Below, one piece after another: positions 42,719 through 59,404 of a stretch of DNA of 64,000 nt. Position 1 is the first letter of the stretch; each line of letters begins with the position of its first letter. The notes below the pieces were generated by a model. It worked only from the letters and a program-made list of their open reading frames with translations, was not told where the DNA came from and made no database searches. Location: the NCBI GenBank assembly GCA_018606805.1, contig JAGYWI010000001.1, forward strand, positions 186,001-250,000. Direction: 5' to 3'. This DNA comes from Candidatus Magnetomicrobium cryptolimnococcus. GTDB lineage: Bacteria > Nitrospirota > Thermodesulfovibrionia > Thermodesulfovibrionales > Magnetobacteriaceae. Position numbers and translations under genes: made by a program.

Positions 42719-44530
42719 CTACTTAATAATACTACCATCTAGCGTAACACCAGCAGCGATATTACCATCACATGCCTTGCGCGCCACCTGTTCCACTTCC
42801 TCATAGCCACAGCCGTTTGCATTACTGTAGGGCACTACGGCTGCATCAAATGCGTGGTTTTGCCATAAAGTGGAAGCAAAGTCTTTTAATAGTTCATACT
42901 TGAAATCCCCCGTGTTATTAAACACGTGCAGCCTATCCTCCTTAAGCAAATGGCAAAAGCGCTCAACAAATCGCTCGTGCAGCATTAGGTGTACATCGTA
43001 AGACATTTCCTTAAGCTGTCTGATGAGTTCTTGTGTTAGACCGTAGTTGGCACACTGAAGCACGAGTATTTTTGCACTCTTATTAGGCAGAGCAGCTTCA
43101 ATTTTAGCCTTAAACTTTTCATGAAAACCGGATTCATTTAATCGCCTCCTAATTGAAGCATCAGCCCATCTGGTGTACGCCTGATTGACATAACCTTCAA
43201 GCTGGCTTGCCGTAAACCGTTCTGTGCGTGCTACGGCACTTTTTGAACCATCGTACAGGCGCCAATCTTTTGAATTAATCCAACCCTTCTCGTCGTATAT
43301 GTCAAACATCTTGGTACCGGGAAATGGTGTAGCTATTGAAAACTGCACTGTATCAGCCGGCAGGCTTGAGGCAAGCTCTATAGTTTGTTCAATGCCTTCT
43401 ATTGTATCACTTGGCAGCCCAAACGTAAATGTTAGGTGCACCTTTATACCAATATCTTTTGTATATTGTATTATGTGTTTTACACGGTTTAAATCCAAAC
43501 TCTTTCCTATTTCATCTAAGACCGCCTGATTTGATGACTCAACACCGTACTTTAAGCTATAAAGCCCAGCGTCTTTTAGGGCATTTAAAAGCCCTTCATC
43601 CATAAGGTCTGCTCGTGCCATAATCGCCCAAGGGATTTTATCTAACCCCTGTTCTTTCATTAATCTTGCTATTTCAAATACATTTTTGCGATTTACGTTA
43701 AACGTATCGTCATCTATGTAAATACTTTCGTAGTTATGTTTTTTTACATTTACAGCTATTTCTTCAACTACATCTTTTGGGTCTCTCATACGATATTTAT
43801 TGCTTTTATAAATTATCTGAGGCCAAACACAAAATATACACTTAAAAGGACACCCTCTTGTTGATGTCATCTGTAGCTGTGGACGTTTGAGACCACACAC
43901 GCCATCGTAGTAGTTTTCATAAGGTAAATCATCACGTTCAGGCCAAGGTAAGTTTTTTAAATCAACTAAGGGACCGCATTGATTTTTTATAATAGTGCCG
44001 TCTTTTCTATATAATACGTTAAAATTCCCAGCCGGTTCATTCCCACTGTTTAAACTAATCAGTAAGTCATTAACCGGCTGTTCGTATTCCCCGTAGATTG
44101 TAAAATCTACCTCATTATTGGCATACAAAAATTCCTCGTTTTCAAGTTCAAAGTGCATTCCAGTAAATATAATTTTAAGTAACCCATTTATTTCTTTTAG
44201 ATGTTTTGCTATTTTTAGATCATTATAAAGACTGGGGGTTGAGGTTTCAACAATAACCACATCTGGCATAAATTCTTTGACAAAGTTGTAAAATTCGTCA
44301 TAACTTTCCCCCATAGCGATGGAATCCCGTACACGCACGTCAAAGCCGTTGCGCTTTGCCAAAGCTCCGGCGGTTGCCAAAAAAAACGGAAACGGCATAT
44401 AACCGCCAATCATATCCTGCCCATAACACGGCATAGTATGCGGCCATCTAGAGCCTGCCTTTATGCCGCGCCAGCCATGGCCTTTTTCATTTATTTCATT
44501 CCACGGTGCATTTGAAAATAATACACGCAT
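42719..44530 (-). CDS. B12-binding-type radical SAM enzyme with extra C-terminal domain
   Basis: 603 residues. An N-terminal cobalamin-binding-like Rossmann domain (about 1-160; no clear DxHxxG) precedes a radical SAM core with TRGCPFKCIFCVWP (CxxxCxxC, near residue 227), the IDDDTFN strand and FTFGLPSDTIEG. A C-terminal extension of about 120 residues looks like a separate alpha/beta domain (AKILVLQCANYGLTQELI). The family methylates or rearranges diverse substrates, often lipids or sugars. It lies between the two CgeB-like genes. Confidence 0.82.
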   Translation of the reverse strand: MRVLFSNAPWNEINEKGHGWRGIKAGSRWPHTMPCYGQDMIGGYMPFPFFLATAGALAKRNGFDVRVRDSIAMGESYDEFYNFVKEFMPDVVIVETSTPSLYNDLKIAKHLKEINGLLKIIFTGMHFELENEEFLYANNEVDFTIYGEYEQPVNDLLISLNSGNEPAGNFNVLYRKDGTIIKNQCGPLVDLKNLPWPERDDLPYENYYDGVCGLKRPQLQMTSTRGCPFKCIFCVWPQIIYKSNKYRMRDPKDVVEEIAVNVKKHNYESIYIDDDTFNVNRKNVFEIARLMKEQGLDKIPWAIMARADLMDEGLLNALKDAGLYSLKYGVESSNQAVLDEIGKSLDLNRVKHIIQYTKDIGIKVHLTFTFGLPSDTIEGIEQTIELASSLPADTVQFSIATPFPGTKMFDIYDEKGWINSKDWRLYDGSKSAVARTERFTASQLEGYVNQAYTRWADASIRRRLNESGFHEKFKAKIEAALPNKSAKILVLQCANYGLTQELIRQLKEMSYDVHLMLHERFVERFCHLLKEDRLHVFNNTGDFKYELLKDFASTLWQNHAFDAAVVPYSNANGCGYEEVEQVARKACDGNIAAGVTLDGSIIK

Positions 44531-52133: not shown

Positions 52134-54647
52134 TTATTTTTGAGTAGGAGGTCTTTTCAACAGTATCTCTCTCTTACATCTATTCAAGGCATTTATAAAC
52201 TCTTCACCTGTTTGAAACCGTGTATCTGCATCCTTAACCAAAAGCTTATTTATTATATCTGCTATACATTTTGGCACTTTAGACTCGTAATCCTTTACAT
52301 TTGGCCTATCTGCACTCGTTATATTATACATAAGTGTGGCTATACTATCCCCTTTAAAAGGTTTCTCTCCACACAGTAATTCAAAGAAAACAACCCCCAG
52401 CGAAAACAAATCAGTGCGGCCATCAACCTTTTTACCCGCTATTTGTTCCGGCGACATATAACTCGGTGTACCTAACACTGCTCCGGTTTGCGTTTTAGAT
52501 GACTCCATAACCCGTGCTATACCAAAATCCGTAACACGTATATCCTTATTATCAAGAAGCATAATGTTAGCAGGCTTTATATCCCTATGTACCACCCCAT
52601 TTTTATGTGCATAATTAAGCGCATCAGCAACCGAGCTAACCACTTTTAAGATTTCACCAAAGGAAAGACGTGTATTTTTCGAGCAAAATTTTATTAGGTC
52701 TGTACCATGCAATAATTCCATAGCCATATAAGCTATCTCTTGATCCTCACCCACATCAAATATCTTAACAATGTTTGGATGATTAAGCTTACCTGCTGCC
52801 TCTGCCTCTCTAAAGAAACGCTCCTTTATCTCTCGCAACTGCTCATCGTCTATTTCCTCGTATCGCAGTGTTTTAATAGCCACATCACGATTAATCTTGG
52901 GGTCCTTTCCAAGATACACGATACCCATAGCACCGCGTCCAAGCTCTTTAAGCACTTCATATCTGCCAAGCGTTGGTCTTGTTTCATTAGCCTCCATTAA
53001 AACAGTAGATTCCTTTCTACCCGAGCCTCCGATAACCACAGTTTCACCAGCAGTTTTTAGCTTCCTAACCTTTTCCTCTAACTCTTTATATGGACCAGCA
53101 CTAAGTATATGCTCATACACCGCTGTTGCCTTATTAAACTGCCTTTTTCTTTCAAAATCAAGCCCAAGATTATACAGCACTTCCTTTATGGATTCATCCT
53201 CGATAGGGCATTTTCTGAATTTGTCAAATGCCATATCAAGCATACCCTGTCCTTGAAACGATAAGCCAAGCATTTTGTTTGTCTCAATACTATCAGCCTC
53301 CATAGCCTCCGTCTGTTTTTCACTTAGGAAATACTTCTTTGTAACTACAACCGTGTAGCCTAAGACTATTAATATGTCTGGGTAAAATATCTTAAGCCAT
53401 AACCCATTTTCCATGAAAAAATATATACCTGCGCCATTCCATACAAGAATCAACACTATAGATATAAATGCACTGTGCCTGCCTTTTAATTTAGGTATCA
53501 GGAAAGAAAGATAAAGCCCAAATAGCAAAATTACCAAAATCTCCATATAAAACGCCCACCATGGACGCATGATATGATTACCACTTATGATATTATCTAT
53601 AACGTTCGCTGTTATTTCAACTCCAAAATGACTCCCTAACGGTGTTATGCTAAGTGTAGCCACACCAGCAGCAACTGGTCCAAGGATAACCACTTTATCT
53701 TTAAAAATCTGCGGTTGCAGCTTTCCATTAATTAAGTCAAAAAACGAGTAATATTGAAACGTTTTAAACTTACCATTGTAGCTTATTAAGAGCCTATGCT
53801 TGTCATCTGTCGGTACTTTGAGCTTTGCAACAGTTATACCATCGGAGGCAACCTTTATGTCTTTTGAATCCACCTTTAGTTGTTTTATTGCCATTTGCAA
53901 TGCAAAAGACGGATACAGGTTTCCCTTGTAATTGATTAAAAGTGGCTCACTACGGAGGACTCCATCAACATCAGTATCAATATTGATATGCCCAAGGGCT
54001 AACGAGTTTTCAGCAAATTCCTTTATTGGCATAAGTATGTTAAGTGCACGTTTGGAGTTATCACCTTTTGGAGCACTTATAGAGTTTTTCGTTAGGTATG
54101 ATGGCAAAATCGCCTTATCATCATCCACCATCGGCTCACCAAGCTCAAAATAAACTGGTAGAATTACATTCGTAGCCGTCCATATTGACTCGGCAAAGAT
54201 GGCATCATTATTTAATATCTGTTCAAGTTCTGTCAATGAGTCAAATATTTCCTTAACGGTGTTATTTGACTTTATAAGGGCTTCTTCTGTTTTAAGCTTT
54301 TCAATTACGGCGGAAATACCATTTAGGGCAGTATTATCGTCTTTTTCAGAATAAAGGACACTTATGCCGATAACCGAGACACCATATTCTTTTAATATAT
54401 TGATGGATTCACCTATGTAGGCACGTGGCCATGGCCATCTGCCTATTTTAGATATGCTTTCTTCATCTATAGCAACAATCACAACTTTATTATCCGTTGG
54501 CTTTTGCCGCAACTGGGCACGAAAGTCATACGTTATGTACTCCAGTACTTCAAACGGATACCATGACGTTAAATACACTATTAAAATAAATATCGTTAAA
54601 CCAAAACCTAATGCCCAATTTGGTATTTTTGTTCGGATTCTTTTCAT
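52134..54647 (-). CDS. CHASE2-TPR-Ser/Thr protein kinase
   Basis: 837 residues. An N-terminal membrane helix (about 13-30) and CHASE2 sensor domain (about 35-330; VVIVAIDEESISKIGRWPWPR is the signature, landmark DEESISKIGRWPWPR) are followed by two or three membrane helices (about 350-430), a short TPR region (about 460-520) and a complete Hanks-type kinase (about 560-830): GRGAMGIVYLG, HRDIKPAN, DFGIARV, GTPSYMSPEQ. All catalytic residues are present. It probably senses an extracellular cue and phosphorylates cytoplasmic targets. Convergent with the PAS kinase gene. Confidence 0.93.
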   Translation of the reverse strand: MKRIRTKIPNWALGFGLTIFILIVYLTSWYPFEVLEYITYDFRAQLRQKPTDNKVVIVAIDEESISKIGRWPWPRAYIGESINILKEYGVSVIGISVLYSEKDDNTALNGISAVIEKLKTEEALIKSNNTVKEIFDSLTELEQILNNDAIFAESIWTATNVILPVYFELGEPMVDDDKAILPSYLTKNSISAPKGDNSKRALNILMPIKEFAENSLALGHINIDTDVDGVLRSEPLLINYKGNLYPSFALQMAIKQLKVDSKDIKVASDGITVAKLKVPTDDKHRLLISYNGKFKTFQYYSFFDLINGKLQPQIFKDKVVILGPVAAGVATLSITPLGSHFGVEITANVIDNIISGNHIMRPWWAFYMEILVILLFGLYLSFLIPKLKGRHSAFISIVLILVWNGAGIYFFMENGLWLKIFYPDILIVLGYTVVVTKKYFLSEKQTEAMEADSIETNKMLGLSFQGQGMLDMAFDKFRKCPIEDESIKEVLYNLGLDFERKRQFNKATAVYEHILSAGPYKELEEKVRKLKTAGETVVIGGSGRKESTVLMEANETRPTLGRYEVLKELGRGAMGIVYLGKDPKINRDVAIKTLRYEEIDDEQLREIKERFFREAEAAGKLNHPNIVKIFDVGEDQEIAYMAMELLHGTDLIKFCSKNTRLSFGEILKVVSSVADALNYAHKNGVVHRDIKPANIMLLDNKDIRVTDFGIARVMESSKTQTGAVLGTPSYMSPEQIAGKKVDGRTDLFSLGVVFFELLCGEKPFKGDSIATLMYNITSADRPNVKDYESKVPKCIADIINKLLVKDADTRFQTGEEFINALNRCKREILLKRPPTQK

Positions 54648-57130: not shown

Positions 57131-57209
57131 AATAGCTGCAAGCAAAGGCACACCAATGATATTATTGACATTATTATATTTCTACGCATTTACGATTACA
57201 AATTAAAGA

Positions 57210-57238
57210 TTGACTTCTGTTTTTAGTGATTTTATAAT
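57210..57238 (+). promoter_or_regulatory. Sigma-70 promoter of the cobalamin-riboswitch transcript
   Basis: TTGACT (57210-57215), 17-base spacer, TATAAT (57233-57238); start expected near 57245, just before the aptamer. Confidence 0.75.
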
Positions 57239-57249
57239 AAGCAAATATC

Positions 57250-57410
57250 CAGCATTACGGAACACGGTGTAAATCCGTGACGGTCCCGCCGCTGTAATCG
57301 GGGACGGCCTCTATGGTGCGAAAGCAGGTCACTATCAGGGAAACCTTGGTGGGAAGGCTGTTAGAGGTCGGTTGAACCGAAAGTCAGAAGACCTGCTGGA
57401 GTGGTTTATT
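57250..57410 (+). promoter_or_regulatory. Cobalamin (B12) riboswitch aptamer
   Basis: The conserved core GTGTAAATCCGTGACGGTC and CCGCCGCTGTAA-CGGGGA is followed by a variable stem region, paired arms AGCAGGTC (57323-57330) and GACCTGCT (57389-57396), and the B12-box-like AAGTCAGAAGACCTGC (57381-57395). The match to AdoCbl/Cbl riboswitches is strong by eye. It lies between a sigma-70 promoter and an intrinsic terminator upstream of a short peptide gene. Confidence 0.95.
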
Positions 57411-57430
57411 AATTAATGGAAGCTGATGGT

Positions 57431-57470
57431 AAAGGGTTCTGTGGGCAATATGTCTGCAGAACCTTTTTTT
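57431..57470 (+). terminator. Intrinsic terminator downstream of the B12 riboswitch
   Basis: AAAGGGTTCTG (57431-57441) pairs with CAGAACCTTTT (57457-57467) over 11 bp with one G-T, followed by a run of T. Located after the aptamer and before the peptide gene, so it is the likely expression platform: B12 binding should stabilise termination. Confidence 0.85.
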
Positions 57471-57503
57471 TTATTAATCTAACATAATAAAAGGAGTAAA
57501 GCT

Positions 57504-57611
57504 ATGAACCAAAAACCTATCAAAACAATTATTGCTGTACGTAAAACCTGTAAAACCGATGGAGCAGGACTTTCTCACTATATACTAATGGATAGGGCAA
57601 CAAAGAAGTGA
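57504..57611 (+). CDS. 35-residue precursor-like peptide next to a radical SAM enzyme
   Basis: ATG 57504 has AAGGAG eight bases upstream. The peptide is basic, with a single cysteine at position 16 (VRKTCKTDG), a Gly-rich GAGLSHYILMD segment and no signal peptide. Its TGA overlaps the GTG start of the radical SAM/SPASM gene by 4 bp, so the two are coupled, and both are under the B12 riboswitch. Size, coupling and partner match RiPP precursors. I recall a CbpA/CbpB-type modified-peptide pair that may be the same family; this was not checked. Confidence 0.75.
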   Translation: MNQKPIKTIIAVRKTCKTDGAGLSHYILMDRATKK

Positions 57612-59023
57612 GTGTTGCGCATAGTATGCAAGGAGGTGTAGTGTCATCGCGAGGCCGTATGCTAAATACCGGTAGTGGTCCTTCATTTATGCCAGTAGAC
57701 ATTAAACATCCTGACTATGTGTGTCTTTTGGAGCCAAACACTGCCTTTTGGTCTTTAGTTAAAAAAGATGCCCTTGCTCAAACCCTGCAAGATGAGACGT
57801 TTATTGCAGCCTATATGGCAAAGGCAAAGGTCTTTGCTGATGAAATGGCAAATCTACGTTTTGGGCTTGGTCTTTCGGCTGTTTATGTTAATCCAACTGC
57901 TCGATGCAATCTAAACTGTACCTACTGCTATATTCCGGAGGATATGCGCCAAAGAGGGGCACGTATGAGTGCCGAAAATCTGCATAAAGCTATGGAGATA
58001 CTTAAAGATTACTTTAAGTCAAAGCTTCCACAGGGGAGGATTCCACAAATCATCTTTCACGGGGCTGAGCCAATGCTTGAAAGTAAAATAGTCTTTTCCG
58101 CCATCGAGACATACAAGGATGACTTTCGTTTTGGGATTCAAACAAACGGCACTATGCTTGATAGTACTGCTGTAGAGTTTATCAAAAATGCCGGCATAGG
58201 TATTGGCCTTTCCTTGGATGCCTCTAATGCGGCCATTGCAGATAGCACACGTAAGACATGGCAGGGTGAAAGCGTCTTTGCAAAGACTCTTGCAGCTATG
58301 GAACTCTTGCAGGGATATGAGGGGATGAATGTCATTTGCACTGTTACTAAAGAAAACATGGCACAGCTTGAAGAAACAGTAAACTTTTTTCACAATAACA
58401 AGGTATCAACAATCATGCTAAACATGATTCGTTGCACCCAGCCAGCATCACGGACCATCAAACCAGTGGATGACGAGGTGTTCCCATACTTTGAGAAGGC
58501 TATAAGGCGTACACAGCAATTGTACCATGAGACAGGCCACAAGGTAGTTGTTGCAAATTTTGCTAATATCCTAATAAGCATACTTGCCCCGACGGCAAGG
58601 CGTCTGATGTGTGATATTTCGCCTTGTGGCGGTGGGCGCGTGTTTTTTGCACTTGGGCCAGAAGGTGGCATGTACCCTTGTAGCGAGTTCATTGGGCTTG
58701 AGGAATTTTGTGGTGGCAATCTGTTTCACGATGATATTGATGACGTACTTAGTTCAAAAGCCTTTCGTATGGTTACTGGGCGTCAGGTTGAAGACATAAG
58801 CCCATGCAGACAGTGCGCCATCAGGCACTTCTGCGGAGCACCTTGCCCGGCTGAGGCGTATACAATGAACGGTGGCATGGATAAGACAGGTGCTTTTTGC
58901 GAGTTCTACGAAGAGCAAGTTCGTTTGGCCTTCCGCATTATAGCGGAAGAGGCTGAAAATGACTTTCTATGGGATGGATGGGATAAAGGTACAACAATTC
59001 TGTTTGATGCCGGACAATTATAA
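57608..59023 (+). CDS. Radical SAM/SPASM peptide-modifying enzyme
   Basis: 471 residues from GTG 57608. An N-terminal region of about 85 residues precedes the radical SAM core with C100-x3-C104-x2-C107 (ARCNLNCTYCYIP), HGAEPML for GGE-type SAM contact and IQTNGTML. The C-terminal SPASM domain has many Cys (CDISPCGGG, YPCSEF, CRQCAIRHFCGAPC, GAFCEFYE), enough for two auxiliary Fe-S clusters. SPASM enzymes usually modify ribosomal peptides. The 35-residue gene upstream is the natural substrate candidate. A transporter or protease for export is not seen nearby. Confidence 0.9.
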   Translation: MSVAHSMQGGVVSSRGRMLNTGSGPSFMPVDIKHPDYVCLLEPNTAFWSLVKKDALAQTLQDETFIAAYMAKAKVFADEMANLRFGLGLSAVYVNPTARCNLNCTYCYIPEDMRQRGARMSAENLHKAMEILKDYFKSKLPQGRIPQIIFHGAEPMLESKIVFSAIETYKDDFRFGIQTNGTMLDSTAVEFIKNAGIGIGLSLDASNAAIADSTRKTWQGESVFAKTLAAMELLQGYEGMNVICTVTKENMAQLEETVNFFHNNKVSTIMLNMIRCTQPASRTIKPVDDEVFPYFEKAIRRTQQLYHETGHKVVVANFANILISILAPTARRLMCDISPCGGGRVFFALGPEGGMYPCSEFIGLEEFCGGNLFHDDIDDVLSSKAFRMVTGRQVEDISPCRQCAIRHFCGAPCPAEAYTMNGGMDKTGAFCEFYEEQVRLAFRIIAEEAENDFLWDGWDKGTTILFDAGQL

Positions 59024-59404
59024 AACACACTAAAGAGATTGCTTCGTTACCAAAAGCACAAGCAAGGCGAAGCAATCTCGCTCTTTTACAGCAAGTGCGC
59101 CTTAACTATACCAAGTTACAAATGTCATAGTATAGAAAAAATTTCCTTAAGAAGAAAGTTTTTTCCTAAATAAACATATGATTAGTACTATCCTTTTTTT
59201 TATGCCACGAGTGTAATACACTACCTGTGTATCAATAAACAAAAATCCTTGTCTATAATCTTAATGGTATGTATTTTGAATATACTTTACAAGCAGGCCT
59301 TGTTGGGCATTTTTGGAATGTATAATTTAGAGCTAGTTATGCAAATAAATGTATGTAGATATAATAGAACTATCATCAAGGATAGAACGTGGAGGGAATA
59401 ATTT
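59024..59404. other. Intergenic region between the radical SAM gene and flagellin
   Basis: A 12-bp hairpin (GAGATTGCTTCG 59035-59046 with CGAAGCAATCTC 59068-59079, then GCTCTTTT) ends the radical SAM transcript. The rest is AT-rich. TATAAT at 59321-59326 is a possible -10 for flagellin, but no convincing -35, sigma-28 or sigma-54 box was found. Confidence 0.6.
59035..59086 (+). terminator. Terminator-like hairpin after the radical SAM gene
   Basis: Perfect 12-bp stem with a 21-base loop, followed by CTCTTTT; the T-run is short, so termination efficiency is uncertain. Confidence 0.6.

Follow-up and report, generated by a model that had tools for sequence, protein, structure and literature searches.

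Many microbial communities are shaped by B12 supply, and B12 regulons have been well mapped. In more than 10 phyla, a cobalamin riboswitch precedes a short peptide gene paired with the gene for a probable modifying enzyme, seemingly without a published function. One such locus, in Candidatus Magnetomicrobium cryptolimnococcus, raises the question of what a peptide of this kind would do for the cell. The locus lies near the end of the window, the whole stretch of 64,000 nucleotides that was analysed, and comprises the following features:

57210..57238, + strand: sigma-70-type promoter, TTGACT-17-TATAAT, a consensus match only (11/12 consensus bases)
57200..57414, + strand: cobalamin riboswitch aptamer, RF00174 (82.4 bits, E 9e-19, full model)
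57431..57467, + strand: intrinsic terminator, the likely expression platform (17-pair stem, 3-nt loop, then a T-run)
57504..57611, + strand: cbpA, encoding the 35-aa precursor MNQKPIKTIIAVRKTCKTDGAGLSHYILMDRATKK (TIGR04164, 49 bits, E 3e-13, cut-off 35)
57608..59023, + strand: cbpB, encoding a radical SAM/SPASM enzyme of 471 aa, a putative peptide modifier (TIGR04163, 667 bits, cut-off 375)
59035..59079, + strand: 3' inverted repeat, a possible terminator (12-bp arms at about 59035-59046 and 59068-59079, 21-nt loop; fold z -4.58)

The pair is CbpA/CbpB, already named in NCBIfam. The initial annotation had described a RiPP-like system of a precursor and a SPASM enzyme with a cobalamin riboswitch, had supposed that a CbpA/CbpB-type pair might already be named, and had pointed to NCBIfam as a check; the matches of peptide and enzyme to TIGR04164 (cobo_pep) and TIGR04163 (rSAM_cobopep), both above the curated cut-offs, support this call and identify exactly that pair. 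Its description of a 35-codon peptide gene with a ribosome binding site, whose stop is overlapped by 4 bp by the GTG of the SPASM gene, is also correct: cbpA is preceded by the Shine-Dalgarno sequence AAGGAG, and the GTG start of cbpB lies within the cbpA stop (overlap 4 nt). The TIGR04163 match spans CbpB residues 29-454, and the Pfam domains Radical_SAM and SPASM fall at residues 94-260 and 340-403, respectively. A chance small ORF is excluded by the TIGR04164 score, by codon-position bias and by conservation.

The promoter, strong aptamer, terminator and 3' hairpin that had been read across 57210-59079 proved accurate in their sequence details, and the riboswitch model proposed for verification, Rfam RF00174, matches the aptamer well above its gathering score of 31.5 bits. 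As transcription of the aptamer must begin past the promoter, the first ~40 nt of the RF00174 match are probably untranscribed. The aptamer plus terminator has a fold z of -3.55, and this arrangement suggests that B12 would repress the window transcript.

An M3-family oligoendopeptidase gene lies upstream of the window pair and a flagellin gene downstream; neither recurs next to CbpB in other genomes. The M3 peptidase was considered as a maturation protease and rejected because it is not recurrent at other loci, and no linked protease family was recurrent in our survey of CbpB neighbourhoods. Elsewhere on the minus strand of the window we noted an 837-aa serine/threonine protein kinase with a CHASE2 domain (52134-54647) and a radical SAM protein with a B12-binding domain (42719-44530; PF02310, PF04055), the latter flanked by two glycosyltransferase-like genes in what is likely a surface or flagellin glycan cluster.

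A survey for CbpB that scanned one genome per species returned 76 loci. According to the record titles, these are distributed over Verrucomicrobiota, Kiritimatiellota, Lentisphaerota, Planctomycetota, several 'Deltaproteobacteria', Nitrospirota, Nitrospinota, Omnitrophota, Melainabacteria, Chloroflexota, Bacillota, Actinomycetota and Pseudomonadota. We inspected 78 loci for CbpA (72 distant loci, five from the organism's own order and the window). The case that had been named as evidence against a precursor, homologous enzymes with no conserved peptide frame next to them, did not occur: CbpA adjoins CbpB in 76 of the 78 loci, across more than 10 phyla, and the two others (L066 and L068) lie on contigs cut 200 and 111 nt upstream, respectively. 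Motif search alone finds the peptide in 74 loci; beyond its reach were the CbpA of L041, which has GLAHY, and that of L038, which ends at the contig edge. The window CbpB is 66% identical to a protein from a Verrucomicrobia MAG but shares only ~40% identity with the CbpB that its own order carries in the operon, and in a quick tree it groups with rows from Verrucomicrobia, Deltaproteobacteria, Melainabacteria and Planctomycetota. These identities and the grouping make horizontal spread of CbpB likely.

The conserved block of CbpA reads V-I-A-x-R-K-x-C-x-A-x-G-T-G-L-S-H-Y-I-L-M-D-K. All 72 cores of standard spacing contain Cys, Gly(+6), Leu(+7) and His(+9), an invariance that arises partly by construction since that spacing was the selection rule for cores; Tyr/Phe(+10) is likewise present in 72/72 and Arg(-3) in 67/72. 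Among 68 related cores, the mean pairwise difference at codon positions 1, 2 and 3 is 0.28, 0.20 and 0.60, and this third-position excess, 2-3 times positions 1 and 2, is the mark of a selected coding sequence. Judged from the sequences, this conservation over more than 10 phyla, with Cys, Gly-Leu and His near-invariant, looks more like that of a cofactor precursor or a metal ligand than that of a bacteriocin. The C-terminal RATKK and the GAGLSHY of the window CbpA are ordinary variation.

Several precursors depart from the usual form. Among CbpA frames preceded by a good Shine-Dalgarno sequence, the shortest encodes the 29-aa MKDVIAYRKTCSAEGTGLSHYILTVATVK of L046, in which the block begins at about residue 3-4, which would leave little room for a separate leader. 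Two complete tandem cores are present in three gammaproteobacterial loci (Neptunomonas, Sedimenticola), in these frames:

L043:1124-1354: double-core CbpA
L053:9489-9974: double-core CbpA
L057:2078-2464: double-core CbpA

The VIAxRK segment is repeated together with the core, and it thus seems to be part of an autonomous unit rather than a leader. At one deltaproteobacterial MAG locus, we also observed an Acido-Lenti-1 RNA (RF01687, 46.2 bits) on the opposite strand between CbpA and CbpB (L029:2920-2964, minus strand). The main unrecorded finding is a divergent, operon-borne CbpA subtype (VISYHLKCAKTANGLTHFVMYGDVPNKKMPL; VISYHLKCAKTANGLTHFVMYGDVP) in eight genomes of the organism's own order (L099, L100, L101, L103, L119, L122, L124 and L136). 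TIGR04164 fails to detect these own-order peptides, so such precursors are probably missing from public annotation, and the CbpB beside them passes TIGR04163 with 497 bits. The same subtype (VISYRMKCAKTANGLTHFVFYGDVP...), likewise missed by TIGR04164, occurs in L102 (G005) as a stand-alone locus behind its own riboswitch.

The association with the riboswitch extends well beyond the window. Among the 63 distant loci with sufficient upstream DNA, 52 have a same-strand cobalamin riboswitch directly upstream, as judged from RF00174 matches placed by contig coordinates, against about 0.06% per locus expected by chance; direct scans agree for eight loci (L005, L017, L021, L024, L026, L029, L043 and L102). 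Regular expressions for the B12 box were tried for riboswitch detection and set aside as too strict, and the RF00174 matches were used instead. The 11 exceptions include four loci among B12 genes (L014, L037, L041, L044), one with BtuR upstream (L036) and one with an RF00174 match 2.1 kb upstream by coordinates (L074); the riboswitch is absent directly upstream, with no such explanation, in L016, L045, L048, L069 and L071. Most loci stand alone, and the evidence there is the preceding cobalamin riboswitch only.

Gene context provides a more specific link to cobalt and B12. B12 or cobalt genes flank 18 of the 72 distant loci, and directly behind CbpB we found CbiX (L041, L044), CobT (L015, L020, L031), CbiM (L038), CbiB (L043) or CbiA (L057). 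The link is most extensive in the organism's own order, where an operon in L099-L101 and L103 begins with a riboswitch, CobU, CobT, CobS, CobC-like, CbiP, CbiB, CobD-like, CbiA and CbiX-CbiC and continues with a second riboswitch, a beta-barrel-like protein, CbiM, CbiN, CbiQ, CbiO, CbpA, CbpB, BtuR, then CbiD or CbiH and others (the L103 sequence begins inside the operon, and the BtuR of L100 is in pieces). The same CbpA-CbpB and the same genes after it occur in L119, L122, L124 and L136. In all eight genomes the pair adjoins BtuR and other B12 genes, and where upstream DNA is covered it lies behind CbiO. In 12 same-order loci that have the operon and lack the pair, CbiO is directly followed by BtuR, which marks the pair as an optional cassette; a functional substitute in these relatives was considered and rejected because nothing stands in its place. 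The beta-barrel-like protein that is first after the second riboswitch and before CbiM matches Phenol_MetA_deg (PF13557; L101:11564-12397, L099:11742-12518) and is possibly an outer-membrane cobalt channel.

Carriers of the pair differ in their apparent capacity for B12 synthesis. The window genome encodes CbiD, CbiC, CbiK, two CbiM and BtuR, and its second riboswitch precedes an operon of the order CbiG/CbiJ...CbiC-CbiK-CbiM-CbiN-CbiQ-CbiO; with this gene set, it makes its own corrin ring. Across 50 carriers, CbiC is found in 33, CbiD in 30 and CbiM in 41. Both CbiC and CbiD are lacking in 16, mostly MAGs whose completeness is not known, and 14 of these 16 have BtuR and 11 have CobT. The one named strain among them, Sedimenticola hydrogenitrophicus (L053), has BtuR behind one riboswitch and, by eye, a TonB-receptor-like gene near another. 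In view of these 16 genomes, the role is probably wider than cobalt insertion, an explanation we had considered and now rate lower; if the gene absences are real, the role must serve salvagers too.

We propose, with our confidence about evenly balanced, that the locus is repressed by B12 and produces a peptide that is modified by its radical SAM enzyme and helps to acquire or process cobalt or corrinoids. At low cellular corrinoid, the riboswitch would permit read-through of the terminator at 57431-57467, CbpA (35 aa) would be made, and CbpB would modify the block VIAxRKxC-x5-GLSHYILMDK, most likely at the single invariant Cys and/or the GLSHY residues. The modified peptide would still be small and would probably be retained in the cell. 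One way in which it might act is as a ligand or chaperone through which cobalt or corrinoid reaches enzymes acting in B12 synthesis, salvage or adenosylation. More tentatively, CbpA may give rise to a ligand or cofactor of peptide origin that is dedicated to cobalt/corrinoid handling, carried as an optional cobalamin-operon cassette and useful to B12 makers and salvagers. Against the main proposal stands the dispensability of the pair, as many own-order genomes have the operon without it. Of the functions first suggested for the peptide, a link to cobalt/B12 handling is favoured by the operon context; that the peptide is purely a signal, or an unrelated replacement cofactor, is less likely.

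The cobalamin riboswitch, the occurrence of the pair in both de novo producers and apparent salvagers, and the cofactor-like conservation of CbpA would also suit a B12-sparing peptide, one that replaces or supports a B12-requiring function and whose synthesis is confined to times of B12 shortage, as with the B12-independent isozymes under riboswitch control. We consider this unlikely, because many loci lie among genes for B12 synthesis or cobalt uptake, a setting in which one would not expect isozymes of B12-dependent enzymes, and because the neighbourhood of the pair shows no recurrent partner enzyme from outside B12 metabolism. Slightly less probable again is a peptide secreted under B12 shortage as a signal, an antibiotic or an extracellular, metallophore-like binder of corrinoid or cobalt: the genes around the pair include no recurrent exporter, protease or immunity family, no signal peptide is seen by eye in the N-terminal part of CbpA, and the core is nearly constant over more than 10 phyla, unlike antagonistic peptides, even if a small peptide with a modifying enzyme, patchy and horizontally spread, and with a doubled core in the precursors of three gammaproteobacterial loci, has the outward form of such a system. 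A further alternative concerns the chemistry and is compatible with the functional proposal: CbpB might convert the CbpA Cys into formylglycine, as anaerobic sulfatase maturases (anSMEs) do, giving an aldehyde-bearing peptide with no cross-link. The enzyme matches anSME strongly (TIGR03942, E 5e-36; structure 4K36), and C-x-A/P-x-G in CbpA resembles the sulfatase motif C-x-P/A-x-R. The Arg of that motif is absent from CbpA, however, and the cross-link makers PapB, DynA and CteB match CbpB equally well or better, and we regard formylglycine as the least probable of these alternatives.

The function of the pair appears unstudied. A literature search, with most subscription journals outside its reach, found no paper on CbpA/CbpB function, and broader searches returned papers that, where checked, did not contain the pair. 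The survey of CbpA adjacency, the upstream riboswitches and the divergent operon-borne CbpA are new here and tie the pair to B12/cobalt handling. If the product does handle cobalt or corrinoids, it would represent a type of step new to B12 physiology, and if it is a ligand or cofactor, a RiPP belonging to vitamin B12 physiology itself. Useful test cases are provided by the apparently leaderless 29-aa precursor, the operon form flanked by genes for cobalt uptake and adenosylation, and the near relatives that have the operon without the pair.

Comparison with characterized enzymes helps to place CbpB. The CX3CX2C cysteines (C100, C104, C107) and the C-terminal SPASM cysteines (C335, C340, C358, C400, C403, C409, C413, C431) are invariant in 52 CbpB sequences. 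A good AlphaFold model (mean pLDDT 89.8, pTM 0.90) has its best structural match in CteB (5WHY, E 5e-22, TM 0.68/0.75), followed by ChlB and anSME. The N-terminal strands and helices (residues 28-85) occur in RRE order and the CteB alignment covers most of the chain; this RRE-like part may bind CbpA.

The SCIFF maturase CteB and PapB-type ranthipeptide maturases thus share with CbpB a SPASM radical SAM architecture and an N-terminal region of RRE-like topology. The systems differ in their partners and in the riboswitch, and CbpA has one conserved Cys rather than six or a Cx3D-type array; CbpB scores 138 bits to PapB against a cut-off of 340 and 104.5 bits to the SCIFF maturase against 425, which places it outside the sactipeptide/ranthipeptide families. 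Similarity to anSME in sequence and fold takes in both the radical SAM and the SPASM domain, but the score of 124.6 bits is under the TIGR03942 cut-off of 349.45, and CbpB has a dedicated adjacent peptide. RiPP cofactors of the PQQ and mycofactocin type resemble the pair in combining a short, very conserved precursor with a SPASM enzyme. In contrast to these systems, CbpB has no recurrent neighbouring genes for proteases or tailoring enzymes, its score to the mycofactocin maturase is far under the cut-off, and a cobalamin riboswitch is present.
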